Both the position numbers and the translations under genes were made by a program. Source: Pseudomonadota bacterium (lineage in GTDB: Bacteria; Desulfobacterota; Desulfovibrionia; Desulfovibrionales; Desulfovibrionaceae). Taken from it: a DNA stretch of 54,779 nucleotides. The stretch is from the NCBI GenBank assembly GCA_018817515.1, contig JAHIUD010000098.1, positions 1-54,779 of the forward strand, read 5' to 3'. This document shows, one piece after another, positions 3,672 to 19,162 of the stretch (position 1 is the stretch's first letter; every line of letters begins with the position of its first letter). The notes under the pieces were generated by a model that made no database searches, was not told where the DNA came from, and saw only the letters and a list, made by a program, of their open reading frames with translations.

Positions 3672-3764
3672 GGCGGATTACCTGGCGAAGGGAAGCAAGA
3701 GACCCTGCCCGACGGCGCCGGCTACATGACGCGAAGGGAAGGCACGCCCAGGAGTTGCAGCGCT

Positions 3765-4460: not shown

Positions 4461-5497
4461 AGAAGACCATCCTCATCACCGGCGGCGCGGGCTTTATCGG
4501 CTCGGCCTTCACGCACTACATCTACAATGCCTACCCCGACTACAACATCATCGTTGTGGACGCCCTGACCTACGCTGGCAACGTGGAAAACCTGCCGGTC
4601 AAGATCTGGCAGGATTTGGACAATCCGCGCCTACAGTTCTGGTACGGCAATATCCTCAATGGCGAGCTTATGGACACGCTCATCTCCCAAAGCGATTATG
4701 TGGTCCACTTCGCGGCCGAGAGCCACGTCACCCGTTCCATCTATGACAACCGCAATTTCTTCGAGACGGATGTCATCGGCACCCAGACCGTGGCCAACGC
4801 CGTGTGCAAGTACAAGGACAGTGTGGAGCGCTTTATCCACATCAGCACCAGCGAGGTCTACGGCACAGCCATCGCCCCGGCCATGGACGAGGACCATCCA
4901 TTGAACCCCATGAGCCCTTACGCGGGCGCCAAGACCGGGGCCGATAGGCTCGTCTACTCCTACTGGGCCACTTACCAGATACCTGCGGTCATCATCCGCC
5001 CCTTCAACAACTACGGCGCCCGCCAGCACCTGGAAAAGGTCATTCCGCGCTTTGTCACCAGCGTCATTCTTGGTGAGAAGCTGCGCGTGCACGGTGATGG
5101 CTCCTCGGCTCGCGACTTCATTCATACCGAGGACACTTGCCGGGCTATCGACCTGGCCCTGCACGCTCCGGCCGAGAAGGTCGTGGGCGAGGTCTTCAAC
5201 GTGGGCTCCGGCATCGACCACTCCATCCTGTCCATCGCCCAGGACATCACCAAGCTCATGTGCGCCAGCAAGGAATGCTATATCAACGTGGGGGATCGCC
5301 CCGGGCAGGTTATGCGCCACACTGCGGACTCCGCCAAGATCAAGCGCGTGCTGGGCTGGGAGCCCAAAGTTACCTGGGAGCAGGGATTGGAGAGCACCGT
5401 GAAGTGGTACGTCGACCACGAGGACTGGTGGCGCAAGATGCTCTGGATGCGCGAGATCCCCATCGTCACCTCCTCGGGCAAGCGCGAGTTGCACTAG
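4457..5497 (+). CDS. Nucleotide-sugar 4,6-dehydratase, RfbB/LegB-like SDR
   Basis: A 346-residue extended short-chain dehydrogenase. The NAD-binding motif GGAGFIG is at residues 9-15, and the catalytic Tyr155 and Lys159 are in SPYAGAK, preceded by an STSEVYG block. These, together with PFNNYG and a DFIHTED segment, place it with dTDP-glucose 4,6-dehydratases and the related LegB group. The expected reaction is oxidation at C4 and loss of water across C5-C6, giving a 4-keto-6-deoxy sugar nucleotide. The next gene, starting two bases after its stop, is a PLP aminotransferase that would use this ketone. Whether the donor is dTDP-, UDP- or GDP-linked cannot be told here. An rmlA-like thymidylyltransferase gene is not in the window. 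Confidence 0.87.
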   Translation: MKKTILITGGAGFIGSAFTHYIYNAYPDYNIIVVDALTYAGNVENLPVKIWQDLDNPRLQFWYGNILNGELMDTLISQSDYVVHFAAESHVTRSIYDNRNFFETDVIGTQTVANAVCKYKDSVERFIHISTSEVYGTAIAPAMDEDHPLNPMSPYAGAKTGADRLVYSYWATYQIPAVIIRPFNNYGARQHLEKVIPRFVTSVILGEKLRVHGDGSSARDFIHTEDTCRAIDLALHAPAEKVVGEVFNVGSGIDHSILSIAQDITKLMCASKECYINVGDRPGQVMRHTADSAKIKRVLGWEPKVTWEQGLESTVKWYVDHEDWWRKMLWMREIPIVTSSGKRELH

Positions 5498-5499
5498 AC

Positions 5500-6627
5500 A
5501 TGCGCATCGAGTTCTTCCGGCACGCACTGGACGAGCGCGATATCGAGAGCGCCGTCGAGACCCTGCGCTCGGTGTTCCTGACCACCGGGCCAGCCTGTGG
5601 TCGCTTCGAGGAGGGCTTTGCCGCCTACACCGGGCTTACGCACTGCGTGAGCCTAAACTCCTGCACGGCGGCCCTGCACCTGGCCTTGCTGGCCCTGGGC
5701 ATCGGCCCTGGCGACGAGGTCATCACCACGTCCATGACTTTCATCGCCAGCGCCACCTCGGTGCTGCACACCGGCGCCACCCCGGTGCTGGTGGATGTGG
5801 ACCCGGACACCGGCCTCATCGATCCCAAGGCGGTGGAGGCGGCCATCACCTCGCGCACCAGGGCCATTCTGCCCGTGCACCTGTACGGTGTCATGGCCGA
5901 CATGCGGGCCCTGCGCGTCATTGCCGACAAGCATCACCTCGCCATCGTGGAGGACGCGGCCCACTGCATCGAAGCCAGCCGCGACGGCGTGCGGCCCGGC
6001 GAACTCGGCGACGCGGCGTGCTACAGCTTCTACGCCACCAAGAACCTCACCTGCGGCGAGGGCGGAGCCGTGTGCACCAACCGCGCGGACATTGCCAGCC
6101 AGGTGCTGTTGCTGCGCCAGCACGGCATGAGCAAGGAGGCCGCCAAACGCTACCACGGCCTTTACCAGCACTGGGACATGGTGGAATTGGGCTGGAAGTA
6201 CAACCTAAGCGACATCCAGGCCGCGCTCATGGTGCACCAGCTTAAGCGGCTGGACGACCTCTGGGAGCAACGCCGCGCCATTTACGACATGTATGCGCAG
6301 GCCCTTGCGGACATTCCCAGCCTGCGCCTGCCAGCCTTGCGCGGTAAGAGCGCCCTGCACCTGTTCACCGTGCAGGTCCCGGCGGACAAGCGTGACGATC
6401 TGCTGGCCTATCTGGGCCAGAACGAAATCGGCGTTGCGGTGAATTACCGGGCCATCCACACCCTGACGTGGTTCCGCAAGCACCTCGGTTGCAAGCCCGA
6501 GGACTTTCCCAATGCCCTCGCATTCGGACAAGGCACGCTCAGTCTGCCCTTCCACACCCGGATAACAGGCCAGGAGATCGCCTATGTGGCAGAAATGTTG
6601 CGCACACACCTTACCTCGGTATTTTGA
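5500..6627 (+). CDS. DegT/DnrJ/EryC1/StrS sugar aminotransferase
   Basis: A 375-residue PLP-dependent aminotransferase of the DegT/ArnB type. The PLP-binding lysine is Lys181 in YATKNLTCGEGG, and the family phrases LNSCTAALHLAL, GPGDEVITTSMTF and VEDAAHCIEA are present. It would aminate the 4-keto group made by the dehydratase just upstream, giving a 4-amino-4,6-dideoxy sugar nucleotide. An acetyltransferase at the start of the operon (1251) could then N-acylate it. Start ATG 5500 lies two bases past the dehydratase stop. It resembles the island's other two aminotransferases in its first third, so it is a paralogue with a probably different substrate. The operon stops here: the next gene is 635 bases away. 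Confidence 0.9.
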   Translation: MRIEFFRHALDERDIESAVETLRSVFLTTGPACGRFEEGFAAYTGLTHCVSLNSCTAALHLALLALGIGPGDEVITTSMTFIASATSVLHTGATPVLVDVDPDTGLIDPKAVEAAITSRTRAILPVHLYGVMADMRALRVIADKHHLAIVEDAAHCIEASRDGVRPGELGDAACYSFYATKNLTCGEGGAVCTNRADIASQVLLLRQHGMSKEAAKRYHGLYQHWDMVELGWKYNLSDIQAALMVHQLKRLDDLWEQRRAIYDMYAQALADIPSLRLPALRGKSALHLFTVQVPADKRDDLLAYLGQNEIGVAVNYRAIHTLTWFRKHLGCKPEDFPNALAFGQGTLSLPFHTRITGQEIAYVAEMLRTHLTSVF

Positions 6628-7262
6628 GAGCGGCTCCTTACCTGACGTTCCCACAACTGCGAAAGCTGGACACTTGGCGCAGCAGTCCACGCCGAGCGCG
6701 AGCGAGACCGCCATACCCTGTTGACACTTTGTTCAATTTTACTGTACAAACAACGCACCCGTGTATCGATAGTTTTTGACAAACCGGTACTAATACCTAT
6801 GTCCGATCACTTCCGGAATCTGAGGTTCTGCTTTTTTGGGAGACTCGCAAAATGAGAGATGTCTTCCTCCGAACCCACTCAGAGACATAGGCTAGCCAAA
6901 GTGAGGCCGGGCACTGAAACGTTGACAGAACGACTGGAGCATTTCATTTTGGGGTATCACGTCACCCTCTCCAGTGATGCAATGCGCTTGCTGCTATAGC
7001 ATGCGTGTTGGGAGACATCCCTCGAGACGCTGACCATGTTCGTGTTTGCAAAAGGGTTCCTGCCTGGGGGCACTGTACAGGGCAAGGGACAACGGTTTCA
7101 GCAAGAGCTCCCCTTAGGGATTGTTGCAACCGACACAACAAGCGAGAGGGCTCGCCACGAGGCGAAGACGGACCAAAGGCGCCTTGAAGTGTACCCCACA
7201 GGAAAAGGGGAGTCATTCACCTCAAGCGAACATACTGAAAGCATAAGTTGGCAGGAGTCTAC
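6628..7262 (+). other. 635-base non-coding gap in front of the pse operon
   Basis: No convincing gene is seen on either strand. Short open frames at about 7005-7187 and 7036-7287 have no ribosome-binding site or recognisable sequence. The first half is AT-richer than the flanks and carries a sigma-70-like promoter (6721-6750) and a second isolated TTGACA at 6776-6781. If transcription starts near 6758, the pseB leader is about 500 bases, long enough for untranslated regulation, although no terminator or RfaH/ops element was found. No intact inverted repeat or transposase is visible. Confidence 0.5.
6721..6750 (+). promoter_or_regulatory. Candidate sigma-70 promoter for the pse operon
   Basis: TTGACA at 6721-6726, an 18-base spacer and TACAAA at 6745-6750 lie in an AT-rich patch of the gap. 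The -35 box is perfect and the -10 matches four of six positions. It is oriented toward pseB, 512 bases downstream. Assignment is by pattern only. Confidence 0.45.
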
Positions 7263-8237
7263 ATGTTCAACGGAAAATGCGTCCTAATCACCGGCGGCAC
7301 GGGCTCCTTTGGTCGAGCCTGCGCTCATACCTTGCTCACCCGGCACAAGCCGACCAAGGTCATTATCCTCAGTCGCGATGAACTCAAGCAATACGAGATG
7401 GCTCAAGATTTCGCCGAGTATGAGAACATCCGCTTTTTCCTTGGCGATGTGCGTGACAAAGACCGCTTGTACCGCGCCTTTCGCGGAGTGGACATCATCA
7501 TCCACGCGGCTGCGCTCAAGCAGGTTCCCGCAGCTGAGTATAATCCCTTCGAGGTCATCAAGACCAACATTATGGGCGCGCAGAACATCATCGACGCGGC
7601 CATCGACACCCAGGTCAGCCATGTCCTGGCGCTCTCCACGGACAAGGCCGCCGCGCCCATCAACCTCTATGGCGCCACCAAGCTCTGCTCGGACAAGCTG
7701 TTCATAGCGGCCAATTCCTATGCCGGTACCGGGGACACCAAGTTCTCCGTCGTGCGCTACGGCAATGTGCTTGGCAGCCGAGGCAGCGTCATCCCCTTCT
7801 TCCGCGAGCAATGCAAAAGCGGCGTGCTCACGGTCACTGACCCGCGCATGACCCGCTTCTGGATCACCCTGGAGCAAGGGGTCGACTTTGTGCTGAGAAG
7901 CATCCCGGCCATGGTCGGCGGTGAGCTTTTCGTTCCGAAGCTTCCCAGCATGAACATTATGACCCTGGCCCATGCCATGTGCCCAGGAGGCAAAATCGAA
8001 ATCACCGGCATCCGTCCTGGAGAGAAGCTCCACGAGGTCATGGTGCCACGCGATGAGGCTCACAACACCGTGGAATTCGAGAACCACTTCCTCATCAAAC
8101 CGAATTTCCGTTTCTTCAATAAACGCTTTGATAGTTGCGGTGCGCGTCCCGTAGCCGACGATTTCGAGTACAACTCCCTGGACAACCCTTGGCAATTGAC
8201 TGTCGAGAAATTGCAGGAACTCATCGAGGAGTTATGA
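7263..8237 (+). CDS. pseB: UDP-N-acetylglucosamine 4,6-dehydratase (inverting), PseB
   Basis: A 324-residue SDR of the PseB/FlaA1 group. The NAD motif GGTGSFG begins at residue 11, followed by IILSRDELKQ, HAAALKQVPAAEYNP, the catalytic LSTDKA and YGATK, and the late GIRPGEKLHEV signature. PseB converts UDP-GlcNAc to UDP-2-acetamido-2,6-dideoxy-beta-L-arabino-hexos-4-ulose, the first step of pseudaminic acid synthesis. AGGAG at 7253-7257 five bases ahead of ATG 7263 fixes this start; the TTG at 7248 is rejected. The stop overlaps pseC as ATGA, and pseC, pseG/H, pseI and pseF follow on the same strand, which makes the assignment firm. Confidence 0.96.
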   Translation: MFNGKCVLITGGTGSFGRACAHTLLTRHKPTKVIILSRDELKQYEMAQDFAEYENIRFFLGDVRDKDRLYRAFRGVDIIIHAAALKQVPAAEYNPFEVIKTNIMGAQNIIDAAIDTQVSHVLALSTDKAAAPINLYGATKLCSDKLFIAANSYAGTGDTKFSVVRYGNVLGSRGSVIPFFREQCKSGVLTVTDPRMTRFWITLEQGVDFVLRSIPAMVGGELFVPKLPSMNIMTLAHAMCPGGKIEITGIRPGEKLHEVMVPRDEAHNTVEFENHFLIKPNFRFFNKRFDSCGARPVADDFEYNSLDNPWQLTVEKLQELIEEL

Positions 8238-9349
8238 TCCCTTACGGACGCCAAAGTATCGACGAAGACGACATCAGGGCCGTCTGCGAGGCCCTGCGCT
8301 CCGACTGGCTGACCACTGGCCCTCGGGTTGAACAGTTTGAGCGAGCAGTGGCCGAGTTTTGCGGTACGGCCTTTGGGGTCGCCGTGGCCAGCGGCACGGC
8401 AGCTCTACACTGCGCCATGCACGCTCTGGGCATCGGCCCCGGCGACGAAGTCATCGTTCCGACCATGACCTTTGCGGCCACGGCGAATTGTGTGCGCTAC
8501 GCGGGTGCCACCCCGGTCTTCGCCGATGTGGACCCAGACACCCTGCTCTTACCCGCCGCCGAAGTGGGACGCCTAGCGACACCCCGCACCCGTGCGGTCA
8601 TCGCAGTGGACTACGCCGGGCAGCCCTGCGACTACGACAGCCTGCGCAAAATCTGCGCGGCCCACAATCTCGTCCTCGTGGCCGATGCCTGCCACGCCCT
8701 TGGAGCAGCAACAGGCCAGGGCGCTGTCGGAAGCTTGGCGGACCTCACCGTGTTCAGTTTCCATCCTGTGAAGCATATCACCACCGGCGAGGGGGGCATG
8801 GTCATGGGCCATGACAAAGCGCTTGAAGCCAAGCTGCGCCGCTTCCGCAACCACGGTATCGACACGGAATTCCGACAACGGCAGGAGCAGGGCACCTGGC
8901 GCTACGACATGGTCGAGCTGGGCATGAACTATCGCATCACGGACATCCAGTGCGCTCTGGGCATAAGTCAGCTGACCAAGCTGCCCGGCTTTCTTGCCCG
9001 GCGCAACGAGATAGCCGCCCGATATGACCAGGCCTTCGCTGGCACCTCTGTGCGTCCTCTGGTCGCCATGCCAGGCGCACTGCACGCCTATCATCTTTAT
9101 GTCGTCCGCGTGACCCGGCGCGACGCGATATTCACCGCACTGCGCGCGGCGGGCATCGGCGTCAACGTGCACTACTCGCCTGTGCACCTACATCCCTATT
9201 ACCGCCAATCCCTGGGAACCGGCCCCGGCCTGTGCCCCGTGGCGGAGGCCACGAGTGAAACAATCCTGAGCCTGCCCCTGCACCCCGGCATGAGCGATGC
9301 GGATGTGGAGACGGTGGTACGGGAAACCCTACGTTTCATGGGGAAGTAA
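8234..9349 (+). CDS. pseC: UDP-4-amino-4,6-dideoxy-N-acetyl-beta-L-altrosamine transaminase, PseC
   Basis: A 371-residue PLP aminotransferase. It opens with IPYGRQSIDEDDI and has the PseC phrases SDWLTTGP, ASGTAALHCAM and VIVPTMTFAATANC, with PLP Lys180 in FHPVKHITTGEGG and VNVHYSPVHLHPYY near the end. PseC transfers an amino group from glutamate to C4 of the PseB product. Start ATG 8234 overlaps the pseB stop by four bases and has GAGGAG just upstream (8226-8231). The next start, ATG 9350, follows its TAA with no gap, so translation along the operon is probably coupled. Its place between pseB and the pseG/H fusion separates it from the other two DegT-type genes. Confidence 0.95.
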   Translation: MIPYGRQSIDEDDIRAVCEALRSDWLTTGPRVEQFERAVAEFCGTAFGVAVASGTAALHCAMHALGIGPGDEVIVPTMTFAATANCVRYAGATPVFADVDPDTLLLPAAEVGRLATPRTRAVIAVDYAGQPCDYDSLRKICAAHNLVLVADACHALGAATGQGAVGSLADLTVFSFHPVKHITTGEGGMVMGHDKALEAKLRRFRNHGIDTEFRQRQEQGTWRYDMVELGMNYRITDIQCALGISQLTKLPGFLARRNEIAARYDQAFAGTSVRPLVAMPGALHAYHLYVVRVTRRDAIFTALRAAGIGVNVHYSPVHLHPYYRQSLGTGPGLCPVAEATSETILSLPLHPGMSDADVETVVRETLRFMGK

Positions 9350-10846
9350 ATGGCCTGCAGCCTGACCATACGCGCCGATGGCGATGCCCGCATGGGCACA
9401 GGTCACGTCATGCGCATGCTGGCTCTGGCCCAGGCCTGGGCTACCCAGAGCGAACCGGTGCGCTTTGTGGGGCGTATAGAGGCTGGACCGCTGCGGGAGC
9501 TAATAATCGCTGGTGGCTTTTCGCTTACGGTCCTGAACGCCGTGCACCCCGACCCGGCTGACATGGCTGTGCTTTTAGAACAAAGCAGCCCGGACGGTTG
9601 GGTGGCTCTTGACGGCTACCACCTCGACTCTGGCTACCAGTGCGGCGTGCGCGCAGCCGGGCGCAAGAGCTTTGTAGTGGACGACACCTGCGACCGGGAT
9701 GCTTACGATGCCAACGTCTACCTGAATCAAAATATCGGAGCCGAAGAGTTAAGCCCAAAGCTTAGCCCCGATGCGCTGAAACTGCTCGGACCGCGCTACG
9801 CTCTGCTGCGCCAGGAGTTTCGCGCCGTGCGGCAGACGACAAAGCCATGCCCGAAACGCGCCCGCAACATCATGGTGACCTTCGGCGGTTCGGACCCAGG
9901 CAATGTTTCCAGCCGAGTATTGCAGGCGCTGGCCTGCTTGGCGGACCCAAGCTTGCACGTTCTCGTCGTAGCTGGTGCGGCCAACCCGCACGCGGAATTC
10001 CTGCGACCCTTAGCGGCAGCCCTGCCCTGCACCTGCGAAGTGCTCCAGGCCGTCACCGACATGCCCGGACTCATGGCCTGGGCGGAACTGGCGATATCCG
10101 CAGCAGGAAGCACCTGCTGGGAGCTGTGCTATTTCGGCGTTCCCATGCTGATCACCTCGGTGGCAGACAACCAGGACATCATCCTAACCGAGCTGGTTAG
10201 ATCCGGGGCAGCGCAAGCCTTCCCGCCACAGACGCGCCCGGAAGAGCTCGCCTCGGCTCTCGGCGCGCTGGTCACCGACGCAGCTTTGCGCCAGAGCATG
10301 CACGAGACCAGCCAAAGGCTGGTCGACGGACATGGGGCAGAACGCGTGGTCAGGGCGATGCGGAGCGAAAGTATTTCCCTGCGTCCGGCCCGGCCTGAAG
10401 ATGCCGAGACACTGCTGTTTTGGCGAAACCATCCTTCGATCGTGGCGCAGAGCTTCTCGCCAGACCTCGTCACCCCAGAAAGCCACGCCAGATGGTTCGC
10501 CAGCAGGCTCGCCGACCCCGATTGCCTGCTGTTCATCGCCGAGGACAGTGCTAGAGCCCCTATCGGACAGATTCGCTTCGACATCCAGGACGATTCCGCC
10601 TTGCTCAGCATAAGCGTAGCGCCGCAATGCCAGAAGCAAGGTTTTGGTACGGCCATGACCCGCAGGGCCTGCTCCATGTTGCTGAGAGACAGGCCCAGCC
10701 TCGTCGTGCAGGCGCTGGTGAAACCCCAAAACACCCATTCCAAGACCATGTTCGAATCTGTCGGGTTTTCTCAGGGCATCGCCAAGAAGGACTTCGCGCA
10801 TCCGCATCTGCTCTTTGAATTGAAGGGAGGGAGCCATGCCCGCTAA
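9350..10846 (+). CDS. pseG: Fused PseG (UDP-sugar hydrolase) and PseH-like (GNAT) protein
   Basis: A 498-residue two-domain protein. Residues 1 to about 340 are PseG: IRADGDARMGTGHVMR contains His19 at the place of the catalytic His in the GxGHxxR motif, then NIMVTFGGSDPGN and AAGSTCWELCYFGVP of the GT-B-like fold. PseG removes UDP from UDP-2,4-diacetamido-2,4,6-trideoxy-beta-L-altropyranose. Residues about 343-490 form a GNAT domain (ISLRPARPEDAETLLFWRN, SVAPQCQKQGFG, NTHSKTMFESVGF), as expected for the PseH step that N-acetylates C4 before PseG acts. One polypeptide thus probably does two consecutive steps. In Campylobacter and Helicobacter these are separate genes. The 3' end overlaps pseI by 11 bases. 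Confidence 0.93.
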   Translation: MACSLTIRADGDARMGTGHVMRMLALAQAWATQSEPVRFVGRIEAGPLRELIIAGGFSLTVLNAVHPDPADMAVLLEQSSPDGWVALDGYHLDSGYQCGVRAAGRKSFVVDDTCDRDAYDANVYLNQNIGAEELSPKLSPDALKLLGPRYALLRQEFRAVRQTTKPCPKRARNIMVTFGGSDPGNVSSRVLQALACLADPSLHVLVVAGAANPHAEFLRPLAAALPCTCEVLQAVTDMPGLMAWAELAISAAGSTCWELCYFGVPMLITSVADNQDIILTELVRSGAAQAFPPQTRPEELASALGALVTDAALRQSMHETSQRLVDGHGAERVVRAMRSESISLRPARPEDAETLLFWRNHPSIVAQSFSPDLVTPESHARWFASRLADPDCLLFIAEDSARAPIGQIRFDIQDDSALLSISVAPQCQKQGFGTAMTRRACSMLLRDRPSLVVQALVKPQNTHSKTMFESVGFSQGIAKKDFAHPHLLFELKGGSHAR

Positions 10847-11879
10847 GTCGTTCTTTGATCCGCAGACCTCAGTCTTCATCATCGCGGAAATGAGCTGCAA
10901 CCACGGGGGTGACTTTGGCACTGCCCTGCGCATCCTGGAGGCCGCCAAGATCGCCGGAGCAGATGCGGTCAAACTTCAGACCTACACAGCCGACACGCTC
11001 ACCATCGACTGCGGCAACGAGTATTTCCGGATCAAGGAAACTCTGTGGGAAGGCCGCACTCTTTACGACCTCTACCACGAGGCATTCACCCCCTGGGAAT
11101 GGCATCCCAGGCTCAAGGCCGCAGCGGAGGGCATGGGCCTTGTCCTGTTCTCAACCCCCTTTGACGCAAGCGCAGTGGACTTTCTGGAGACCCTGGACGT
11201 GCCATGCCATAAGATCGCCTCCTTCGAAAACGTGGACCTGCCGCTCATCCGCAAGGTTGCAGCCACGGGCAAGCCGGTCATCATGTCCACGGGCATGGCC
11301 AGCGAGGCCGAGCTTGATGAGGCCGTAGCGACCTTCCGCGAGGCCGGAGGCATGGAACTGGCGCTGCTCAAGTGCACCTCTGCCTATCCCGCTCCCATGG
11401 AAGAGATGCACCTGAACACCATCCCTTACCTGGCCGCGAAATATGCAGTGCCTGTCGGACTTTCCGACCACACCATGGGCAACGCTGCATCCATTGCCGC
11501 CACGGCCTTGGGGGCGCGCATCATCGAGAAACACCTCTGCCTGGACCGATCAAGGCCCGGTCCGGATTCCGCCTTTTCCCTGGAGCCTTCAGAGTTCAAG
11601 GCCATGGTGGAAGGCGTAAGGGCCACCGAGAAAGCCCTCGGCCAAGTGAGCTTTGCCTTGACAGAGAAACAGCAGGCCAGCGCGGCGTTTCGGCGGTCTC
11701 TCTTTGTCGTAAATGACATGACCGCCGGCGAAAACTTCACTGAGCAGAACTTGCGCTCCATCCGACCCGGGTTCGGCCTGCACACCAGGCACCTGGAGGC
11801 CGTGCTGGGTCGGCAGGCCACCTGCGCAATAAAACGCGGCACGCCTCTATGCTGGGAACTTGTGGAGGGGCAAAAATGA
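10836..11879 (+). CDS. pseI: Pseudaminic acid synthase, PseI (NeuB family)
   Basis: A 347-residue NeuB-family protein. The N-terminal TIM barrel is marked by FIIAEMSCNHGGD, AVKLQTYTADT, STPFDASAVDFLE, KIASFE, MSTGMA, CTSAYPAP and GLSDHTMG. The C-terminal part (residues about 285-345, SLFVVNDMTAGENFTEQNLRSIRPG) is a SAF/antifreeze-like domain. PseI condenses phosphoenolpyruvate with the six-carbon 2,4-diacetamido sugar released by PseG to give pseudaminic acid. The length is typical. It starts inside the pseG/H reading frame, with GGGAGG just upstream, and its stop overlaps the next gene as ATGA. Confidence 0.95.
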   Translation: MPAKSFFDPQTSVFIIAEMSCNHGGDFGTALRILEAAKIAGADAVKLQTYTADTLTIDCGNEYFRIKETLWEGRTLYDLYHEAFTPWEWHPRLKAAAEGMGLVLFSTPFDASAVDFLETLDVPCHKIASFENVDLPLIRKVAATGKPVIMSTGMASEAELDEAVATFREAGGMELALLKCTSAYPAPMEEMHLNTIPYLAAKYAVPVGLSDHTMGNAASIAATALGARIIEKHLCLDRSRPGPDSAFSLEPSEFKAMVEGVRATEKALGQVSFALTEKQQASAAFRRSLFVVNDMTAGENFTEQNLRSIRPGFGLHTRHLEAVLGRQATCAIKRGTPLCWELVEGQK

Positions 11880-12847
11880 CCGCAAGACTCACTGCGGCGC
11901 TTTGCGGCCTGGGCAACATTTCCTGGCGTTTCGGCAAGGATGCCGAAGGCGATGCCCTGTGCCATGCCGAGGCAATGCTTCAGCATCCAGGCGTCCGGCT
12001 CGCTGGAGGCTGCGACCCGGACAGTTCTTTTCGTGCAGAATTCACTGCGCATCATGGGCTGCGGACTTTTGAAGGCCTTGCGGAGATGCTTGGTGCACTG
12101 AACCCGCACATCGTGTCCATCTGCTCTCCCGCCGCGCTACACCTGGAGCACGCCCAGCGCTGCATCGAGCACGGCGTTCCCATGATCTGGCTAGAAAAAC
12201 CTCCCGCCGGGGACTGCTCACAGCTGCGCCTACTGCTCGATCAGCAGAAGGCGCAAGGCGGACGAAGCACGGTGCTGGTCAATTATCAACGCCGCTACAC
12301 ACCCTGCTTTGTCAATCTCAGAGATGCTCTCCGGCGACAGACAATGGGACGTCTCGTCCGCATTGACGTCAACTATTCTAGGGGACTGGAGACAAACGGC
12401 AGTCATCTTCTTGACCAGGTATTCTTCCTCCTTGGTGAAGACTTGGGTTACACTCTTGACTGGGTCTCCGGCGCCAGCAGCGCCAATCCCTGTTGCGGCC
12501 TCACCACCGCTCAGGGCGTCCGCATCGTCATTCAGGGCGACGAACTGCCCTATCACAACATCGACATCCGCGCGACTTGCGAGGGCGGGCGCCTCTCCAT
12601 ATTGCACGGCGGCATGACCACCGAAGTGGAGCGGATCAGAGAGCATGAGTGCTACCCTGGATTCTATCGGCTGGCCCAGGAGGATGCATCGCTGCTGGGG
12701 CCGGGGGGGCAACTCGGGGCTTTCTCCACAGCTCTTGAAGACCTCATAGAGGCCCACCGCAGCGGTCGCCAGCCCATCAGCAGCCTGCGTTCAGCCCTGA
12801 GTGGGCAGGTACTTATGGAGCGCATCTTGCCCGAGGCAAGATCGTGA
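11876..12847 (+). CDS. Gfo/Idh/MocA-family oxidoreductase
   Basis: A 323-residue NAD(P)-dependent oxidoreductase. The Rossmann motif is GLGNIS near the N-terminus; CSPAALHLEHAQRCIEHG and WLEKPPAGD follow, the latter carrying the EKP lysine typical of the family, then NYQRRYTP. Family members oxidise or reduce sugar hydroxyls, as WbpB does at C3 of UDP-GlcNAcA. It is embedded between pseI and pseF with ATGA and GTGA overlaps, so it is made with the pseudaminic enzymes although the standard pathway has no step for it. With the aminotransferase at 14654 and the GNAT at 15955 it could form an oxidise-aminate-acylate set (inference). GGAGGGG upstream of ATG 11876 supports this start over the ATG at 11849. 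Confidence 0.85.
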   Translation: MTARLTAALCGLGNISWRFGKDAEGDALCHAEAMLQHPGVRLAGGCDPDSSFRAEFTAHHGLRTFEGLAEMLGALNPHIVSICSPAALHLEHAQRCIEHGVPMIWLEKPPAGDCSQLRLLLDQQKAQGGRSTVLVNYQRRYTPCFVNLRDALRRQTMGRLVRIDVNYSRGLETNGSHLLDQVFFLLGEDLGYTLDWVSGASSANPCCGLTTAQGVRIVIQGDELPYHNIDIRATCEGGRLSILHGGMTTEVERIREHECYPGFYRLAQEDASLLGPGGQLGAFSTALEDLIEAHRSGRQPISSLRSALSGQVLMERILPEARS

Positions 12848-13959
12848 CCCTGCTCTTTGCCGCCAGCGAGATCGGGAGCTGGCACGCGCTTGCACCAGTG
12901 GCCCACAGCTGCGTGCAATCCGGAATGACCGTACTGCTTTCGCAGCGGGGAGCGGCCGAGACCGCGACAGTCGGCATTGGCGCGGCACTCCTGCCCTGCG
13001 GGGAGACCCCCGCGCAGATCGACGCTTTCCTCCTACAGCATAATGTCCAAGCTGTTGTTTTTTCCTCCAACGTCAGCGACCCGCAGCCGTTGTCCATCGC
13101 CAGGCGCGCCAGCCAGAAGGGGCTGCCAACCCTACATGTTCTGGACTATTGGAATGGATATGCTCAGCGCTTGAGGCTCGACGGACTGCCCCAATTTCAA
13201 CCAGACATTTATGCAGTGCCCGACAAATTGGCCCAGACGGCCGCCTTGGGCGAGGGCATCGCGGGGAAAACTCTCCGAGTCACCGGCCAGCCGGCCTTCG
13301 CTGACACCTTCACGGCCGTTGCGCCAAACGATCAGGACAAGCGTGCACAAAAAAAAGCGGCGGGGTGCGATCCTGATCTGCCGCTCATGCTGTTCGTGTC
13401 TGAGCCGGTAACCCAGGACCAGGGCAGCGACCCGACCAGTCCGGGATACAGAGGGTACACGGAGCGCGACGTCATAAGGCTCATTCTGTCAATCCTGCGA
13501 CCCCTTGCCGGAAGACTGCAGTTGGCCGCCCTTCCGCATCCAAGAGAGGACGGCACGATGCTTTGCGCCCAGCTGGAACAGGGCAAGGGAGCGCTCGCAA
13601 CCTGCCTGATCCGCCTTGCCCGGGGGCGAGATGCGCTGGCCCTGGCGGACGGCGTGGCAGGCATGGCCTCCACCTTGCTTTACGAGGCATGGCTTCACGG
13701 CCTGCCTGTGGCCAGTATCCAGCCGGGGCTGCAAGTGTCGTCCCTCGCAACCCTGCGGCAGCGTCAGGGAGTACTCTTTCTCGATCAGCATGAGGGCCTG
13801 CAAACGGCCCTGACAGCATGGTCCGAAGGCCTGGGCTGCGGGCCTCGGCCCAGGGTGCGCCCGGAGGCGGCACTCCACAGCAGGGCGGTCGACAGCCTGC
13901 GCGACATAATTTGCGGGCTCTTGAACAACAACCAGCTCAGCCAAGGCAAACATTCATGA
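12844..13959 (+). CDS. GT-B-like protein of unknown function in the pse operon
   Basis: A 371-residue protein that I cannot assign to a named family with certainty. It begins with a Rossmann-like TLLFAASEIGSWHALAPVA and has an interior GQPAF turn, LPHPRE, and a C-terminal GVAGMASTLLYEAWLHGLPVASIQPG that resembles the nucleotide-binding half of GT-B glycosyltransferases, UDP-sugar 2-epimerases and capsule transferases. The GTG start at 12844 overlaps the oxidoreductase stop (GTGA), and its stop overlaps pseF (ATGA). A glycosyltransferase acting with the CMP-nonulosonic acid, or a nucleotide-sugar hydrolase, are both possible. No signal peptide or membrane segment is seen. Confidence 0.7.
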   Translation: MTLLFAASEIGSWHALAPVAHSCVQSGMTVLLSQRGAAETATVGIGAALLPCGETPAQIDAFLLQHNVQAVVFSSNVSDPQPLSIARRASQKGLPTLHVLDYWNGYAQRLRLDGLPQFQPDIYAVPDKLAQTAALGEGIAGKTLRVTGQPAFADTFTAVAPNDQDKRAQKKAAGCDPDLPLMLFVSEPVTQDQGSDPTSPGYRGYTERDVIRLILSILRPLAGRLQLAALPHPREDGTMLCAQLEQGKGALATCLIRLARGRDALALADGVAGMASTLLYEAWLHGLPVASIQPGLQVSSLATLRQRQGVLFLDQHEGLQTALTAWSEGLGCGPRPRVRPEAALHSRAVDSLRDIICGLLNNNQLSQGKHS

Positions 13960-14657
13960 ACATCGCCGTCATCCCCGCACGCGCTGGCAGCAAACGCATC
14001 CCGGGCAAAAACATCCGGCCCTTCTGCGGCAAGCCCATGATCGCCTGGTCCATCGAGGCGGCCCGTAACGCCGGGATATTTGACAGGGTGATCGTGTCAA
14101 CGGACTCAGAAGAGATTGCGGCGGTTGCTCGCCACCATGGCGCGGAAACGCCCTTCCTGCGCCCCGCAAAGCTATCCGGGGACCACATTGCCACGGCACC
14201 GGTGTTGGAGCACGCCCTTGCCTGGCTGAATGGCCAGGGGCAAACCCCAGAGCGATTGTGCTGCATTTACGCCACTGCGGCTTTCGTACGACCCGAGCAC
14301 CTTCGCCAAGGCCTGGAGACGCTCATGTCCACAGGCTGCTCAAGCTGCTTCTCCGCGACGAGTTATGCCTTCTCCATCTTCCGCAGCCTCAAGCTGGAAC
14401 AGGACGGCACTCTGAGCATGTTCTGGCCGGAACATGAGATGACCCGCTCACAAGATCTGCCCGAAGCCTATCACGATGCCGGGCAGTTCTACTGGCTTGA
14501 CTGCCGGGAATTTCAGCAAAGTGGAAAGATCTACGCTGCGGATGCCCGACCGGTACTTCTGCCACGCCACATCGTGCAGGACATAGACACCCCGGAGGAT
14601 TGGATCAGAGCGGAGTATATGTTCCAGGCCGTCCGAAACGCCGAGGGAATTTCATGA
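13956..14657 (+). CDS. pseF: CMP-pseudaminic acid cytidylyltransferase, PseF
   Basis: A 233-residue NeuA/PseF-type protein. The nucleotide-binding motif PARAGSKRIPGKNIRPFCGKP begins at residue 7; RVIVSTDSEEIA, FLRPAKLSGD, CIYATAAFV and the C-terminal VQDIDTPEDW are characteristic of the PseF branch. It activates pseudaminic acid with CTP to CMP-pseudaminic acid, the glycosyl donor. Translation is coupled to both neighbours by ATGA overlaps. An in-frame ATG at 13818 lies inside the previous gene and is rejected, since the family motif starts right after Met13956. With this gene the CMP-Pse pathway in the window is complete. Confidence 0.94.
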   Translation: MNIAVIPARAGSKRIPGKNIRPFCGKPMIAWSIEAARNAGIFDRVIVSTDSEEIAAVARHHGAETPFLRPAKLSGDHIATAPVLEHALAWLNGQGQTPERLCCIYATAAFVRPEHLRQGLETLMSTGCSSCFSATSYAFSIFRSLKLEQDGTLSMFWPEHEMTRSQDLPEAYHDAGQFYWLDCREFQQSGKIYAADARPVLLPRHIVQDIDTPEDWIRAEYMFQAVRNAEGIS

Positions 14658-15958
14658 CCACACTAGCGATCCACGGAGGCGAGCCCGTGCGCACCAAGCC
14701 CTTCCCGGCCTATGTCACCGTGGGCAAGGAGGAGAAGCAGGCGCTTGCTGCGGTCATCGATTCCGGCTGCCTGTCCAAGTACCTTGGCGTATGGCACGAG
14801 CAATTCCTGGGCGGAGAGCAGGTACGGGCGTTGGAGGCCGAATGGGCTGCGTACTTCGGTGCGCGCCACGCCGTGGCTGTCAACTCCTGCACCTCCGGAC
14901 TCATCTGCGCCGTGGGCGCGGTGGGGATTAGTCCCGGTGACGAGGTCATCGTCACCCCCTACACAATGAGCGCCACGGCCACGGCCATCCTCGTCTGGGG
15001 CGGCATCCCCGTATTCGCAGACGTTGAACCAGGGTACTACTGCCTGGACCCCAAGGACGTGGAGCGAAAGATCACCCCGCGCACCAGAGCCATTATGGCC
15101 GTAGACATCTTTGGCCAGCCTATCGATGCCCCGGCGTTGCAGGACCTGGCAGAGCGCCACAGGCTCACGCTCATCGAGGATACGGCCCAGGCTCCCGGAG
15201 CCAAACTCGATGGTCGCCATACTGGAACCCTGGGCCATATGGGCGTTTTTTCCCTTAATTATCACAAGCACATCCACTGCGGCGAGGGCGGGATCATCCT
15301 CACTGACGACGACCGCCTGGCCGAACGCTGCCAACTCATCCGCAACCACGCCGAGGCCGTGGTGGAGGCCAAGGGCGTGACCGAGCTGGCGAACATGGTG
15401 GGCTTCAACTTCCGCATGACCGAACTGGAAGCCGCAGTGGCACGCTGCCAGCTGCGAAAACTGGACGGACTGCTCAAGCGCAGGCTGGCCAACGTGAGAC
15501 TCTTTGAAGAGCGCGTTGCGCACATCCCGGCCATCAGCGCCCCGCGCCTGCGCCCCGACGCAAGCCACGCCTATTACGTCCACGCCTGCCGCTTTGACGC
15601 AGAAGTGGCCGGTGTGCCCCGCGATGCGTTCATCAACGCCGTACGCGCGGAGCTGCCGCACCATGAACTGCGTCGCGCGGAGGGCGTCAAACTCGGCTGC
15701 GGTTACGTGCGCCCACTGTATCTGCAGCCCCTTTTTCAGAAGCGCATTGCCTTCGGTGCTGGCGGCTACCCCTTTTCCCTGGGCGAGCAGGACTACGCCA
15801 AAGGCCTGTGCCCGGTTTGCGAGGGGTTGCATGAGCGGGAGCTGTTCACCCATGAATTTATGCTACCAAGCATGACCGAGGTGGATATTGATGATGTGGG
15901 CCAGGCCTTTGACAAGGTTTGGAGTCTGCGGCACGAATTGCGCGGGAGGCAGGAATGA
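14654..15958 (+). CDS. DegT/DnrJ/EryC1/StrS aminotransferase, extra copy in the pse operon
   Basis: A 434-residue PLP aminotransferase, clearly longer than PseC (371). It begins TLAIHGGEPVR, a start typical of the StrS/AHBA-synthase-like branch, and has VNSCTSGLICAVGAVG, VEPGYYCLDP, IEDTAQAPGA and PLP Lys205 in NYHKHIHCGEGG. The extra length is C-terminal, with GLCPVCEGLHERELFTHEF near the end, an unusual Cys-x-x-Cys for this family. Since pseB/pseC already supply the C4 amine of the hexose, this enzyme must aminate something else: either a further position on the nonulosonic acid or another sugar. The oxidoreductase at 11876 could make its ketone. ATGA overlaps join it to pseF and to the GNAT that follows. 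Confidence 0.86.
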   Translation: MTTLAIHGGEPVRTKPFPAYVTVGKEEKQALAAVIDSGCLSKYLGVWHEQFLGGEQVRALEAEWAAYFGARHAVAVNSCTSGLICAVGAVGISPGDEVIVTPYTMSATATAILVWGGIPVFADVEPGYYCLDPKDVERKITPRTRAIMAVDIFGQPIDAPALQDLAERHRLTLIEDTAQAPGAKLDGRHTGTLGHMGVFSLNYHKHIHCGEGGIILTDDDRLAERCQLIRNHAEAVVEAKGVTELANMVGFNFRMTELEAAVARCQLRKLDGLLKRRLANVRLFEERVAHIPAISAPRLRPDASHAYYVHACRFDAEVAGVPRDAFINAVRAELPHHELRRAEGVKLGCGYVRPLYLQPLFQKRIAFGAGGYPFSLGEQDYAKGLCPVCEGLHERELFTHEFMLPSMTEVDIDDVGQAFDKVWSLRHELRGRQE

Positions 15959-16533
15959 TCAATGCCGTCCTTACCGCAGGCCGGGTACGGCTTGCCCCAT
16001 TTGAACAAAGGCATCTGAGTCCGGAGTATGTCTCCTGGCTCAACGACCAGGATCTCATGAGCTGCAGCGAGCAGCGCCACCGGCAGCACACGCTAGAATC
16101 CTGCCGAACATATTGGGAGGGGTTTTCTGGAACGCCCCACTGCTTTTGGGCCATTGAGGCTCTGGACCTGGGCGGCCTGCACATCGGAAATCTCAATGCC
16201 TACATCGACAGGGCCAACGGAATCGCCGACATGGGGCTTCTCATCGGACACTCCAGAGCACGGCGCAAAGGTTACGGCCAGCTTGCATGGAATACAGCAC
16301 TTTCGCACCTGCTCAACCAGACTGAAATCCGCAAAGTGACTGCCGGCGCGATGGCTGTAAACGAGGGTATGCTCCGCATCGCTGAACACTCAGGCATGCA
16401 TCAAGACGGTTGCAGGAGCCGGCATTTCATGCGCGAGGGCAAAGAAGTCGACCTTGTCTACTGGGCGGCCTTTTCACGGCCTACGCAGCCACACATTCCG
16501 ACCACACAGCCCAAACCGGACGGCCACCAGTGA
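15955..16533 (+). CDS. GNAT-family acetyltransferase
   Basis: A 192-residue protein of the RimJ/PseH-like GNAT group: VRLAPFEQRHLSPEYVSWLND at the start, IADMGLLIGHSRARRKGYG as the CoA-binding strand-loop, and a later NEGMLRIAEHSG helix matching the NxxxxxxxEkxGF region. It should N-acylate an amine. It directly follows the extra aminotransferase (ATGA overlap), so the natural reading is that it acylates that product. AGGCAGG lies just before ATG 15955; the upstream in-frame ATG at 15919 is inside the aminotransferase. The last 18 residues (QPHIPTTQPKPDGHQ) look like a non-conserved tail. This is the third acetyltransferase domain of the island. Confidence 0.85.
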   Translation: MINAVLTAGRVRLAPFEQRHLSPEYVSWLNDQDLMSCSEQRHRQHTLESCRTYWEGFSGTPHCFWAIEALDLGGLHIGNLNAYIDRANGIADMGLLIGHSRARRKGYGQLAWNTALSHLLNQTEIRKVTAGAMAVNEGMLRIAEHSGMHQDGCRSRHFMREGKEVDLVYWAAFSRPTQPHIPTTQPKPDGHQ

Positions 16534-16547
16534 CCCTGCAGCCCCAG

Positions 16548-16560
16548 GTAATAGTATTAC
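16548..16560. repeat. 13-base palindrome before the amidotransferase gene
   Basis: GTAATAGTATTAC is a perfect inverted repeat of 6-base arms around one central G, in the 60-base gap that follows the coupled gene chain. It is AT-rich in a GC-rich locus and could be a protein-binding site, or chance. Confidence 0.3.
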
Positions 16561-16593
16561 ATTGGAACAGGGCGTAAGGAAGGAGACCACACG

Positions 16594-17790
16594 ATGACGT
16601 GCTCAGAACCACTGCTCAGCACCCTGCGCTACTGTATGCGGTGCAATATCCCTGAGACCCAGGAAGGGGTTATTTTTGACGAGATGGGCATCTGCCAAGC
16701 CTGCCAATCCTCAGAACAAAAGATCCACATAGACTGGACCGAGCGCTACGCCCTGCTGCAGGAGATAGTCGCAGACGCCAAGTCCAAATCCGGCAGCGGC
16801 TATGACTGTATCCTACCTGTAAGCGGCGGTAAGGACAGCACCTACCAGGCCTATGTGCTGGTTGAACAACTGGGGCTCAAACCCCTTTGTGTCACCTTCA
16901 ATCACAATTGGATGAGCCAGACAGGCTGGTACAATCTGCAGAACCTGCTTGAACGGTTCAACCTGGACCATGTGATGTTCACCCCCAACCGGAAACTGGT
17001 CAACCGTCTTGCCAAACGATCCTTGGAGATGATCGGTGACGCCTGCTGGCACTGCCATTCGGGAGTTCCGGCCTTTGTCCTCTCCATGGCCGTCAAGTTC
17101 AAAATCCCGCTCATCATCTGGGGCGAGTCCATTGCCGAGGCATCCGGACGGGCCAGTTACAAGGATCCTGTCCATCACTTTGACAGGGATTATTTCTTAA
17201 AAGTCTCAAGCAAAATCAGGCCGGAGCTAATGATCTGCGATTATCTGAACTCGCGCGACCTGTATCCCTTCGATCTGCCAAGTGCAGAAGAGCTGGAGAC
17301 CGTCGGAGTCTACGGCCTGCATTTAGGCGACTACATCTTCTGGGACGAGGAGCGCCAGGTGGAATTCATCCGCGAGCATTACGGCTGGCTGGAGACAGAG
17401 ATGGAAGGCGCCTTCAAGGGCTATAAGAGTGCGGAATGCGTCATGGCCGGAGTGCATGACTTTACCTGCTACCTCAAGCGGGGCTATGCGCGTGGCAGCT
17501 TTCAGGCCAGCGTGGACGTGCGCAACGGGCTGCTCACGCGGGCCGAGGGCTTTAAACTGGCCCAAAAGTGCGACACCATGCGCCCAGAAGCTCTCGATTA
17601 TTTCCTGCAGGCAACTGGCATGACCGAGGAGGATTTCTTCAAGATCATGCGCGAGCAAATGCATCCCAAGATCAAAGGGACGCAACTTCCGGTCACACTT
17701 CCTGACCACCCCAATGGCGAACGGATCAAACCGTTTTCACAACATATCCTCGATACCATGGCCGGACGCAAGGACCCCAGGGAAGGTTGA
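16594..17790 (+). CDS. N-acetyl sugar amidotransferase, PseA/WbpG/LegA-like
   Basis: A 398-residue ATP-PPase-type amidotransferase. Four cysteines near the N-terminus (Cys14, Cys17, Cys34, Cys37) form a likely zinc site, the PP-loop SGGKDST is at residues 77-83, and FNHNWMSQTGWYN, GDACWHCHSG and IWGESIAEASGR are family signatures. Members turn an N-acetyl group into an acetamidino group (PseA on pseudaminic acid, WbpG on a uronic acid) using ammonia. WbpG is known to need HisH/HisF-type partners for ammonia; neither is in this window. Instead an amidase gene starts four bases after the stop. The start has a strong AAGGAAGGAG. The first gap in the coupled operon (60 bases) precedes it. Confidence 0.9.
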   Translation: MTCSEPLLSTLRYCMRCNIPETQEGVIFDEMGICQACQSSEQKIHIDWTERYALLQEIVADAKSKSGSGYDCILPVSGGKDSTYQAYVLVEQLGLKPLCVTFNHNWMSQTGWYNLQNLLERFNLDHVMFTPNRKLVNRLAKRSLEMIGDACWHCHSGVPAFVLSMAVKFKIPLIIWGESIAEASGRASYKDPVHHFDRDYFLKVSSKIRPELMICDYLNSRDLYPFDLPSAEELETVGVYGLHLGDYIFWDEERQVEFIREHYGWLETEMEGAFKGYKSAECVMAGVHDFTCYLKRGYARGSFQASVDVRNGLLTRAEGFKLAQKCDTMRPEALDYFLQATGMTEEDFFKIMREQMHPKIKGTQLPVTLPDHPNGERIKPFSQHILDTMAGRKDPREG

Positions 17791-17794
17791 CAGC

Positions 17795-19162
17795 ATGCTT
17801 GATCCTTTCAGAGCAACAGACATAAGCACCCTGCACGAGTGGATCGCCCGCGGCGAGATCCGCGCCTCCGAACTCAGCGAATGGACCATCGCGCGTTCCA
17901 AGGATCTTGATCCGCACTACCACTTCTGGGTCTGCCACGACCCGGACAATTTGCGTGACCAGGCCCGGCTCTCGCAAGCGCGAGTGACGGAGGGTCAAAC
18001 GCTACGGCCGCTGGAGGCCATGCCCGTCGGGGTAAAGGACATCTTCAACACGCATGACTATCCCACCCAAATGGGAAGCCCCCTATGGAAGGACTTCAGG
18101 CCGGGCAATGACGCCCGTGTTGTCTATTCCTTGCGAAACGCAGGCGGGCTGGTGGCCGGGAAGACCGTCACTGCTGAATTCGCGGTTCATGCGGAGCCAG
18201 AGACCATTAACCCGCATAATCCAGCGCTGACGCCGGGAACATCCTCCAGCGGTTCGGCAGTGGCGGTGGCCCTGGGTGTTGTTCCAGTGGCTCTGGGCAC
18301 CCAGACCGGAGCCTCCATCACACGGCCGGCAAGCTTTTGCGGTATTTATGGATTCAAGCCCTCCTTCGGATTGCTCCCGCGGACCGGCATTTTGAAAACC
18401 ACGGACAGTCTCGACACCGTGGGATTTTTCTCCTCGCGCTACGGGAATTTGCGCCGCGTCTTCAACGTGCTGCGGGTGCAGGGGATGAATTACCCCCTGA
18501 GCCACAAAGCCCTCATGGACCAGGAGCGGCAATCCCCTACGCCCGGACGCCCCTTTAAAATCCTCCTGGCCAGAACGCACACCTGGGACCAGGCCACTGA
18601 AGAGGCTCGTTCGCAGCTCTTGGCCTACGCACATGAACTCAGCGCAAGCGGCGCAGTGGAGATCTTTGAAGATCCTCTTCCCGGCTCCCTGGAGCAATGC
18701 CACATACTGCATTCCATCATCTACGACAAATCCCTGTCGTACTATTTCAAGGACGAGAGCAGGCAAGAGATGCTTATCTCACCGGCAATCAGGGAGATGC
18801 TCGCGCACGGGTCAAGCGTTGGCGTTTCCGACTTCCATGCAGCCGTGGCACGGCAAGAGCAACTTTGTGCCAGCGTTGACGCTTTCTTGACGAAATACGA
18901 TGCCGTCCTCTCGCTCTCCACAGCCGGGCCTGCGCCTCTGCGCGACACATATCCCCCTGCCGATCCGGGCCTGATGTGGACCATGCTACATTTGCCAAGC
19001 ATTTCGGTGCCACGTTTCGCCACGAAAGAAGGCCTTCCCATCGGGGTGCAGTTTAGCGCACGGCGCTTCAACGACTTCCTTCTGCTAGGAGTGCTTGATA
19101 CACTGCGCGCCTTGGATCTTGTCCCTGCGGGCTCTTTCCCCGTGGCCCACCCCATCGTTTAA
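17795..19162 (+). CDS. Amidase-signature family enzyme (GatA/AtzF-like fold)
   Basis: A 455-residue amidase-signature protein. The Ser-cisSer-Lys triad is visible: Lys81 in PVGVKDIF, the Ser-rich loop TPGTSSSGSA (Ser150-152) with the cis-serine, and nucleophile Ser174 in GTQTGASITRPASFCG. The family hydrolyses amides; GatA-type members release ammonia from glutamine and pass it through a channel to a partner. ATG 17795 is four bases past the amidotransferase stop, so the two are almost certainly co-translated. I infer an ammonia-supplying or amide-editing role with that protein; an unrelated catabolic amidase is the alternative. The longer frame starting at 17714 would overlap the previous gene by 77 bases and is rejected. 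No signal peptide, so cytoplasmic. Confidence 0.88.
   Translation: MLDPFRATDISTLHEWIARGEIRASELSEWTIARSKDLDPHYHFWVCHDPDNLRDQARLSQARVTEGQTLRPLEAMPVGVKDIFNTHDYPTQMGSPLWKDFRPGNDARVVYSLRNAGGLVAGKTVTAEFAVHAEPETINPHNPALTPGTSSSGSAVAVALGVVPVALGTQTGASITRPASFCGIYGFKPSFGLLPRTGILKTTDSLDTVGFFSSRYGNLRRVFNVLRVQGMNYPLSHKALMDQERQSPTPGRPFKILLARTHTWDQATEEARSQLLAYAHELSASGAVEIFEDPLPGSLEQCHILHSIIYDKSLSYYFKDESRQEMLISPAIREMLAHGSSVGVSDFHAAVARQEQLCASVDAFLTKYDAVLSLSTAGPAPLRDTYPPADPGLMWTMLHLPSISVPRFATKEGLPIGVQFSARRFNDFLLLGVLDTLRALDLVPAGSFPVAHPIV

Follow-up and report, generated by a model that had tools for sequence, protein, structure and literature searches.

A recurrent oxidoreductase-aminotransferase-acyltransferase cassette in a pseudaminic acid operon as a candidate for adding an acylated nitrogen to a nonulosonic acid

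Which product is made by an operon for cytidine monophosphate (CMP)-activated pseudaminic acid (Pse) that contains several genes beyond the known pathway? This question is raised by a stretch of 54,779 nt from a bacterium of the Desulfovibrionaceae (assembly GCA_018817515.1, contig JAHIUD010000098.1, positions 1 to 54,779), in the following called the window, which corresponds to contig C45 of a 3.6-Mb genome. Between 7248 and 19162 on the + strand, a chain of genes encodes PseB, PseC, a PseG-PseH fusion, PseI, a Gfo/Idh oxidoreductase (Gfo), a GT-B protein (gene 12844), PseF, a DegT-type aminotransferase (AT2), a GNAT acyltransferase, PseA and an amidase-signature protein. The best explanation, which we hold with slightly better than even confidence, is a conserved tailoring cassette that would add an extra acylated nitrogen to a nonulosonic acid. 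It builds on what was directly observed, namely the gene content and order, their wide conservation, the pairing with genes for nonulosonate synthases and CMP-synthetases, and an exchange of amidase and HisH beside PseA. An initial annotation of the window had proposed that the product may be a nonulosonate bearing a third nitrogen, acylated or amidino. Its observation is right and this main inference is favoured by the comparative evidence, but the arrangement turned out to be a recurrent cassette and not a singular one.

In the proposed pathway PseB, PseC, PseH, PseG and PseI would lead to Pse, one hydroxyl of which would be oxidised to a ketone by Gfo, presumably at C8. AT2 would convert the ketone into an amine, GNAT would acylate the new amine and PseF would form the CMP-sugar, which may in turn be transferred by the GT-B protein. 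PseA would turn one N-acetyl into an acetamidino group, using ammonia from the amidase rather than from HisH/HisF. All of these catalytic steps are inferred, as are their order, the C8 site and the functions assigned to the GT-B protein and the amidase.

The scan of named genomes for AT2 yielded 577 relatives, of which the best 80 loci were kept; the rates are thus valid for close AT2 relatives. Profile searches detect Gfo in 71 of these loci, the GT-B family in 64 (with a profile built from the very AT2 loci on which it was scored; plain blastp finds fewer, 42 of 80), a PseF-type synthetase in 59 and a nonulosonate synthase in 52. GNAT (48), PseB-type dehydratases (41), PseA (28) and the amidase (7) follow, whereby a PseA-amidase fusion in locus L099 was tallied under amidase and one of the seven (L063) lies in a locus without PseA. 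In the 49 loci where AT2 is flanked by 5 kb or more on each side, Gfo occurs within ~5.5 kb in 44, the GT-B family in 43, PseF-type synthetases in 37, synthases in 34 and GNAT in 29. The hosts of the best 80 comprise Campylobacterota, Bacillota, Bacteroidota, Pseudomonadota, Omnitrophota, Melainabacteria, candidate phyla, a Lokiarchaeal bin and others, with cassette-bearing bacteria ranging over Sulfurimonas, Clostridium, Pedobacter and Azospira. Of 297 genomes from the phylum of the window, 5 contain a Gfo/Idh relative, the window's own among them. Genome G181 exhibits the order PseI-Gfo-12844-PseF-AT2-GNAT identical to the window at 35-59% identity, G241 retains Gfo-12844-PseF-AT2 as far as the contig end, G213 has a looser version, and in G242 Gfo is present and AT2 absent. 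As distant genomes contain the block again, with its gene order unchanged or similar, the set is more than a chance assembly. Conservation of gene order in relatives had been put forward in the initial annotation as a check on its claim, and the claim was not refuted by it. Apparent AT2-GT-B fusions in L060 and L066 (frames of 819 and 616 residues) were rejected, their first parts being out-of-frame extension. No description of the cassette was found in the open-licence literature, which does not prove its absence from print. The sole match of that search combining pseudaminic acid, Gfo and an aminotransferase concerns Aeromonas islands, some of which contain Gfo/Idh, GNAT and PLP-transferase genes without assigned function in the accessible part of the source (PMC7874193).

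The CMP-Pse route is indeed located in one chain within the window. PseB, the uridine diphosphate (UDP)-N-acetylglucosamine (UDP-GlcNAc) 4,6-dehydratase (5-inverting; 7248-8237; TIGR03589, 497.1 bits, cut-off 407.75), the aminotransferase PseC (8234-9349; TIGR03588, 455.5 bits, cut-off 423.5), the PseG part of the PseG-PseH fusion (UDP-sugar hydrolase and GNAT; 9350-10846; TIGR03590, 206.7 bits, cut-off 153.55), the pseudaminic acid synthase PseI (10836-11879; TIGR03586, 487.5 bits, cut-off 340.25) and the CMP-nonulosonate synthetase PseF (13956-14657; TIGR03584, 313.4 bits, cut-off 205.7) all score above the NCBIfam cut-offs, whereas the C-terminal PseH half of the fusion stays under its own (TIGR03585, 35.9 bits, cut-off 93.1). 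Unlike the known CMP-Pse pathway, the window adds Gfo, the GT-B protein, AT2, GNAT, PseA and the amidase in or behind this chain. Gfo (11876-12847; PF01408; listed frame start 11849), AT2 (pyridoxal phosphate (PLP)-dependent; 14654-15958; PF01041, 285.8 bits; listed frame start 14600) and GNAT (15955-16533; PF13302; listed frame start 15919) had been placed in the chain correctly. With the start codons chosen in the initial annotation, every neighbouring pair from PseI through GNAT overlaps by 4 bases. Gfo and gene 12844 are hence threaded between PseI and PseF and not just attached behind them. The PseA/WbpG-like amidotransferase reported behind the set is also well supported (PseA/WbuX-type N-acetyl sugar amidotransferase; 16594-17790; TIGR03573, 330.9 bits, cut-off 203.2). 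All listed open frames exist, but the GT-B gene between Gfo and PseF (12844-13959; no NCBIfam or Pfam family match) and the amidase behind PseA (17795-19162; PF01425, 220.9 bits) had been overlooked. The longest amidase frame begins at 17714 and overlaps PseA; in our judgement the in-frame ATG at 17795 suits the relatives better.

Comparison of the loci makes it likely that the cassette acts on a nonulosonate. It accompanies synthase and CMP-synthetase genes rather than UDP-sugar dehydrogenases: UDP-sugar 6-dehydrogenase (WbpA-type) genes were found in just 3 of 83 loci, and the four in the source genome that exceed the cut-off all lie on contigs other than the window's. Moreover the cassette is also found beside NeuB-type synthases and in phage contigs, and thus most likely tailors the nonulosonate itself. 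Ten synthases are less than 40% identical to PseI; in all nine that were tested (the fragment of L056 was excluded) the NeuB model outscores the PseI model, as it does for one phage synthase, while none of these ten tested proteins scores above the NeuB or the PseI cut-off. Among the 28 AT2 loci without a synthase, 25 come from genomes with a PF03102 match elsewhere (17/19 and 8/9), 24 of them below E 1e-49.

These numbers bear on the partner sugar that the initial annotation had offered as an alternative, which we consider less likely and, in the form given here, improbable. Pseudomonas aeruginosa possesses a Gfo/Idh oxidoreductase (WbpB), a DegT aminotransferase (WbpE), an acyltransferase (WbpD), a 2-epimerase (WbpI) and an amidotransferase (WbpG with HisH/HisF). 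By analogy Gfo and AT2 would 3-aminate a UDP-N-acetylhexosamine, GNAT would acylate it, the GT-B protein would epimerise C2 and PseA would amidinate, and the product would be incorporated next to Pse. The window matches the Wbp set in its logic and in the number of enzyme kinds, with the GT-B protein as member of the 2-epimerase superfamily. The likeness to WbpB/WbpE/WbpD noted in the initial annotation therefore stands as logic alone: WbpA-type genes are scarce as described, the acyltransferase is a GNAT and not of the WbpD type, an amidase takes the place of HisH, and the genes are tied to PseI and PseF.

Were Gfo and AT2 to produce a nonulosonate of another kind, a second CMP-synthetase beside Gfo would be expected, and such loci do exist. 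Across a tree of 79 PseF proteins, adjacency to Gfo as a label requires 13 changes compared to a shuffle mean of 25.5 (0 of 500 shuffles as low), a clustering to which near-copies contribute. All 11 Gfo-side PseF from loci with multiple PseF fall within one lineage of 30 rows (support 90/98). Likewise, in the nine two-PseF loci with both copies in the tree, the Gfo-side copy lies inside this lineage and its partner outside. The tree took frames of 150-420 residues, which leaves out the fused partners of L074 and L103; L076 is also without its partner. Such a separate PseF lineage speaks for a nonulosonate and against the partner sugar.

Several observations weigh against a nonulosonate substrate or at least weaken the argument. 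Three of the 28 synthase-less loci come from genomes without any PF03102 match, and PF03102 was matched in 9 of 14 control genomes too. The 30-row lineage consists of 22 PseF next to Gfo and 8 not so labelled, and several partner PseF are long branches of unsure placement. The window itself has one PseF, which belongs to the ordinary lineage, so that the two-PseF argument is not directly applicable to it.

Two side observations concern the synthetases and synthases. In L074 (2518-4572) and L103 (445-2502) a cytidylyltransferase is fused to a class III aminotransferase, a separate link of CMP-nonulosonate synthesis with an aminotransferase. L093 and the phage contigs L125 and L126 show PseB together with a NeuB-type synthase, with PseC and PseG not seen; perhaps such loci make a nonulosonate without nitrogen at C7.

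Where would the new nitrogen be placed? AT2 and Gfo bear conserved residues: K205 of AT2 is invariant in 9 sequences and present in at least 90% of 40, and E107-K108-P109 as well as H177 of Gfo are invariant in an alignment of 37 sequences including the window. Mean column identity is higher in AT2 (63%) than in Gfo (33%) and the GT-B protein (25%). This, together with AT2 travelling with Gfo in 71 of 80 loci, fits a ketone that is passed directly to the aminotransferase. Searched against the PDB, the AT2 profile scores 277.6 bits with 8gyh, 246.9 with a perosamine synthase and 245.9 with the 8-amino-Kdo (8-amino-3-deoxy-D-manno-octulosonate) transaminase 5k8b, followed at lower rank by QdtB (184.2), WbpE (167.8; 28th of 55 matches) and 2fn6 (158.5), which is a ranking by score and not a tree. 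We take 8gyh to be Fic25, 5k8b to be KdnA and 2fn6 to be PseC. The scores lean away from 3-amino enzymes without singling out KdnA, and AT2 scores nearer to other aminotransferases than to WbpE, which speaks somewhat against the partner sugar. WbpB is not named among the 60 best of 99 PDB matches of Gfo.

Assuming a nonulosonate substrate, we regard C8 as a fairly likely site by analogy. Carbons 4-9 of Pse derive from the hexose, whereby Pse C8 equals hexose C5. The oxygen of hexose C5 is ring-bound until PseI acts, and C4 and C8 hence carry free hydroxyls of the product. C8 is proposed because hexose C5 is locked in the ring before the PseI step and because precedents exist. In Shewanella, KdnB and KdnA act on C8 of a 2-ulosonic acid, which is oxidised and then transaminated to 8-amino-Kdo. 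The logic of oxidation followed by transamination is shared, and 5k8b resembles AT2. In contrast, KdnB is a metal-dependent alcohol dehydrogenase and not a Gfo/Idh protein, the carbon is terminal there and secondary here, and there is no GNAT. Further precedents are on record: the O-antigen of Flexibacter maritimus contains an 8-amino-3,5,7,8,9-pentadeoxy nonulosonate (PMC3210612), Campylobacter an 8-O-acetyl derivative of Pse (PMC3068675), and EpaA together with EpaB of Acinetobacter converts Pse into its 8-epimer (PMC12053666). In the open-licence literature we found no paper naming the genes for the 8-amino nonulosonate of Flexibacter (Tenacibaculum) maritimus, for which the cassette represents a concrete candidate that is testable enzyme by enzyme.

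The choice of C8 has its weak points. 5k8b is just fourth of the 55 PDB matches, with 8gyh and perosamine synthases scoring equal or higher, and the PDB matches of Gfo are nothing specific and give no hint at regiochemistry. C4 or another carbon of the nonulosonate is possible as amination site. A nonulosonate might accordingly be tailored otherwise, by amination at C4, by oxidation and transamination replacing an existing group, or by inversion of C8 with AT2 in a side branch. The Acinetobacter prophages illustrate the latter: like the cassette, their EpaA/EpaB system is phage-borne and combines a cytidylyltransferase with oxidoreductases altering C8 of Pse, but these are an aldo-keto reductase and a short-chain dehydrogenase/reductase, no aminotransferase is involved and the outcome is inversion and not amination (PMC12053666). 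Moreover in that system the cytidylyltransferase is fused to the aldo-keto reductase, whereas the window PseF has 233 residues with nucleotidyltransferase matches and is accompanied by Gfo/Idh instead. Given the pairing of AT2 with Gfo, the better conservation of AT2 and the existence of a natural 8-amino nonulosonate, such other tailoring appears rather unlikely compared to amination at C8.

The GT-B protein is, with about even confidence, a transferase of the CMP-activated sugar. Its AlphaFold2 model (pLDDT 93.4) shows a GT-B fold. The best Foldseek match is the UDP-GlcNAc 2-epimerase 1f6d (E 2.2e-13, 13% identity), while VIA-align prefers MurG 1nlm (Z 24.6, rmsd 3.2, 313 aligned). Against a transferase stands its distant kinship with UDP-sugar 2-epimerases, as would be found for a WbpI-like protein acting on a UDP-sugar partner: the best PDB matches of the GT-B profile are UDP-2,3-diacetamido-glucuronic acid 2-epimerases (E 1.5e-5), and hhalign reaches 98.9% with 2-epimerases. 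The Glu of the VEAG motif and the His of the HR(A/E)N motif belong to the active site of 2-epimerases. In the GT-B family, however, the column of the Glu is occupied by L, I or V in all 42 relatives, and at the position of the His one alignment shows His in none and the other in a single one of the 42. R109 and H232-P233 are instead invariant in all 42. Furthermore, one phage cassette of PseF-Gfo-AT2-GNAT has no GT-B match in the locus, which also counts against the partner sugar. Weak Pfam matches of the 42 members are distributed over Epimerase_2 (12), DUF354 (8), MGDG synthase (7), polysialyltransferase (7), glycerophosphotransferase (7) and capsule synthesis (2). A hhalign comparison with a PseG set was uninformative, as the set probably contained PseH/GNAT sequence.

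Behind the cassette, the amidase probably feeds ammonia to PseA. All 11 PseA proteins at least 56% identical to that of the window have the amidase as neighbour or fusion partner, compared to 0 of 39 with at most 38% identity. HisH shows the opposite pattern and was found within 4 kb of 0 of 11 close and 30 of 39 distant PseA (Fisher p 2.7e-11 for the amidase and 4.5e-6 for HisH; the sequences are related and not independent). In view of this exchange, ammonia is probably supplied by the amidase in place of HisH. The nine distant PseA without HisH are all on viral contigs. A neighbour was counted as near when its gene start lies within 4 kb, and tandem PseA genes were tallied separately, so that 39 distant PseA are not 39 contigs. 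Seven duplicate loci were dropped, as were 6 of 56 PseA genes with less than 250 bases downstream; three of these six are at least 56% identical (L026, L096, L019) and no amidase is visible as the contig ends. L107 and L108 perhaps represent one phage population, thus the 11 close cases are possibly 10 independent ones. HisH was called by blastp with one genome protein; this probe and five tested neighbours exceed the HisH cut-off. None of the eight PF00117 matches of the genome is located on the window's contig, and the asparagine synthase of the window at 28842 has a different glutaminase domain. In L099, PseA and amidase share one frame of 870 residues, the amidase half of which is supported by Pfam.

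The amidase-signature motifs provide the catalytic Lys, cis-Ser and Ser residues of the family, and GatA of GatCAB is an amidase-signature glutaminase supplying a partner enzyme. An alignment including the GatA-like protein of the genome (the fragment of L106 was omitted) shows the Lys, cis-Ser and Ser motifs conserved in the amidase of the window as well as in 10 relatives linked to PseA. Speaking against ammonia supply, these amidases do not conserve the stretch by which GatA binds glutamine. The window amidase would therefore resemble GatA in its motifs and, if the reading is right, in supplying ammonia to another enzyme, but differs by the missing stretch and by a sugar amidotransferase as partner. 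Kept catalytic motifs without this stretch would also suit an enzyme that removes acyl groups from the sugar or glycan or cleaves an amide there; in view of the substitution for HisH and the fusion to PseA such a function is doubtful. Should ammonia supply by the amidase prove true, it would be a second, independent ammonia route for sugar amidotransferases and would guide annotators on which PseA needs which partner. Loci L053, L057, L061, L064, L066, L067, L075, L079 and L085 contain PseA genes in tandem, with HisH lying between or next to the copies.

The cassette is also carried by phages. The AT2 scan of IMG/VR gave six contigs, with PseF-Gfo-AT2 in four and GNAT adjoining AT2 in five; the remaining two begin inside or shortly before AT2. 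On one viral contig the cassette is flanked by a major head protein and a head-tail adaptor. Farther along, two viral contigs encode PseB, a NeuB-type synthase and another GNAT as well, and in one of the two an RmlD-like reductase supported by Pfam is present. That phages carry tailoring genes only is ruled out by these two contigs, in whose record pieces no PseC or PseG was found by blastp. PF03102 was matched in 5 of 10 viral records tested, twice strongly. Among isolated phages (INPHARED), no PseA relatives were found at E 1e-15, and AT2 relatives occur in 12 of 50,697 records with at most 36.5% identity.

Ahead of a phage cassette lies a gene for a 292-residue protein, whose relatives occur on further viral contigs with nonulosonate genes (the search covered contigs that had been selected for carrying such genes). 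No PHROG or Pfam family matched it, and its structural model is weak (pLDDT 68.1). The top ten Foldseek matches comprise eight CstII chains and one other Campylobacter sialyltransferase chain, plus one chain from Pasteurella; the best E is 1.5e-3, none lies below 0.001 and all TM-scores are below 0.45. It is possible that phages glycosylate their own particles, and if so they could coat them with the sugar. The farthest-reaching version of our reading, a widespread route to 5,7,8-triamino nonulosonates plus a new amidinating pair in many phyla and in uncultured phages that coat their own particles by means of the CstII-like transferase, is unlikely to hold in all its parts.

Uncultured phage contigs with nonulosonate genes interspersed among phage genes are L020 (2125-14320), L104, L105, L106, L125 and L126, including PseF-Gfo-AT2-GNAT, PseA-amidase and the CstII-like protein. 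In L110 (16459-18219) the CstII-like phage protein has a long insertion which by eye in the alignment resembles an intein or homing-endonuclease insert. Finally, the window contains at 3726-6627 an RmlB-like dehydratase together with a PseC-like aminotransferase, each scoring below its cut-off; they follow a WbqC-like gene plus two radical SAM/SPASM genes and perhaps serve another amino sugar.

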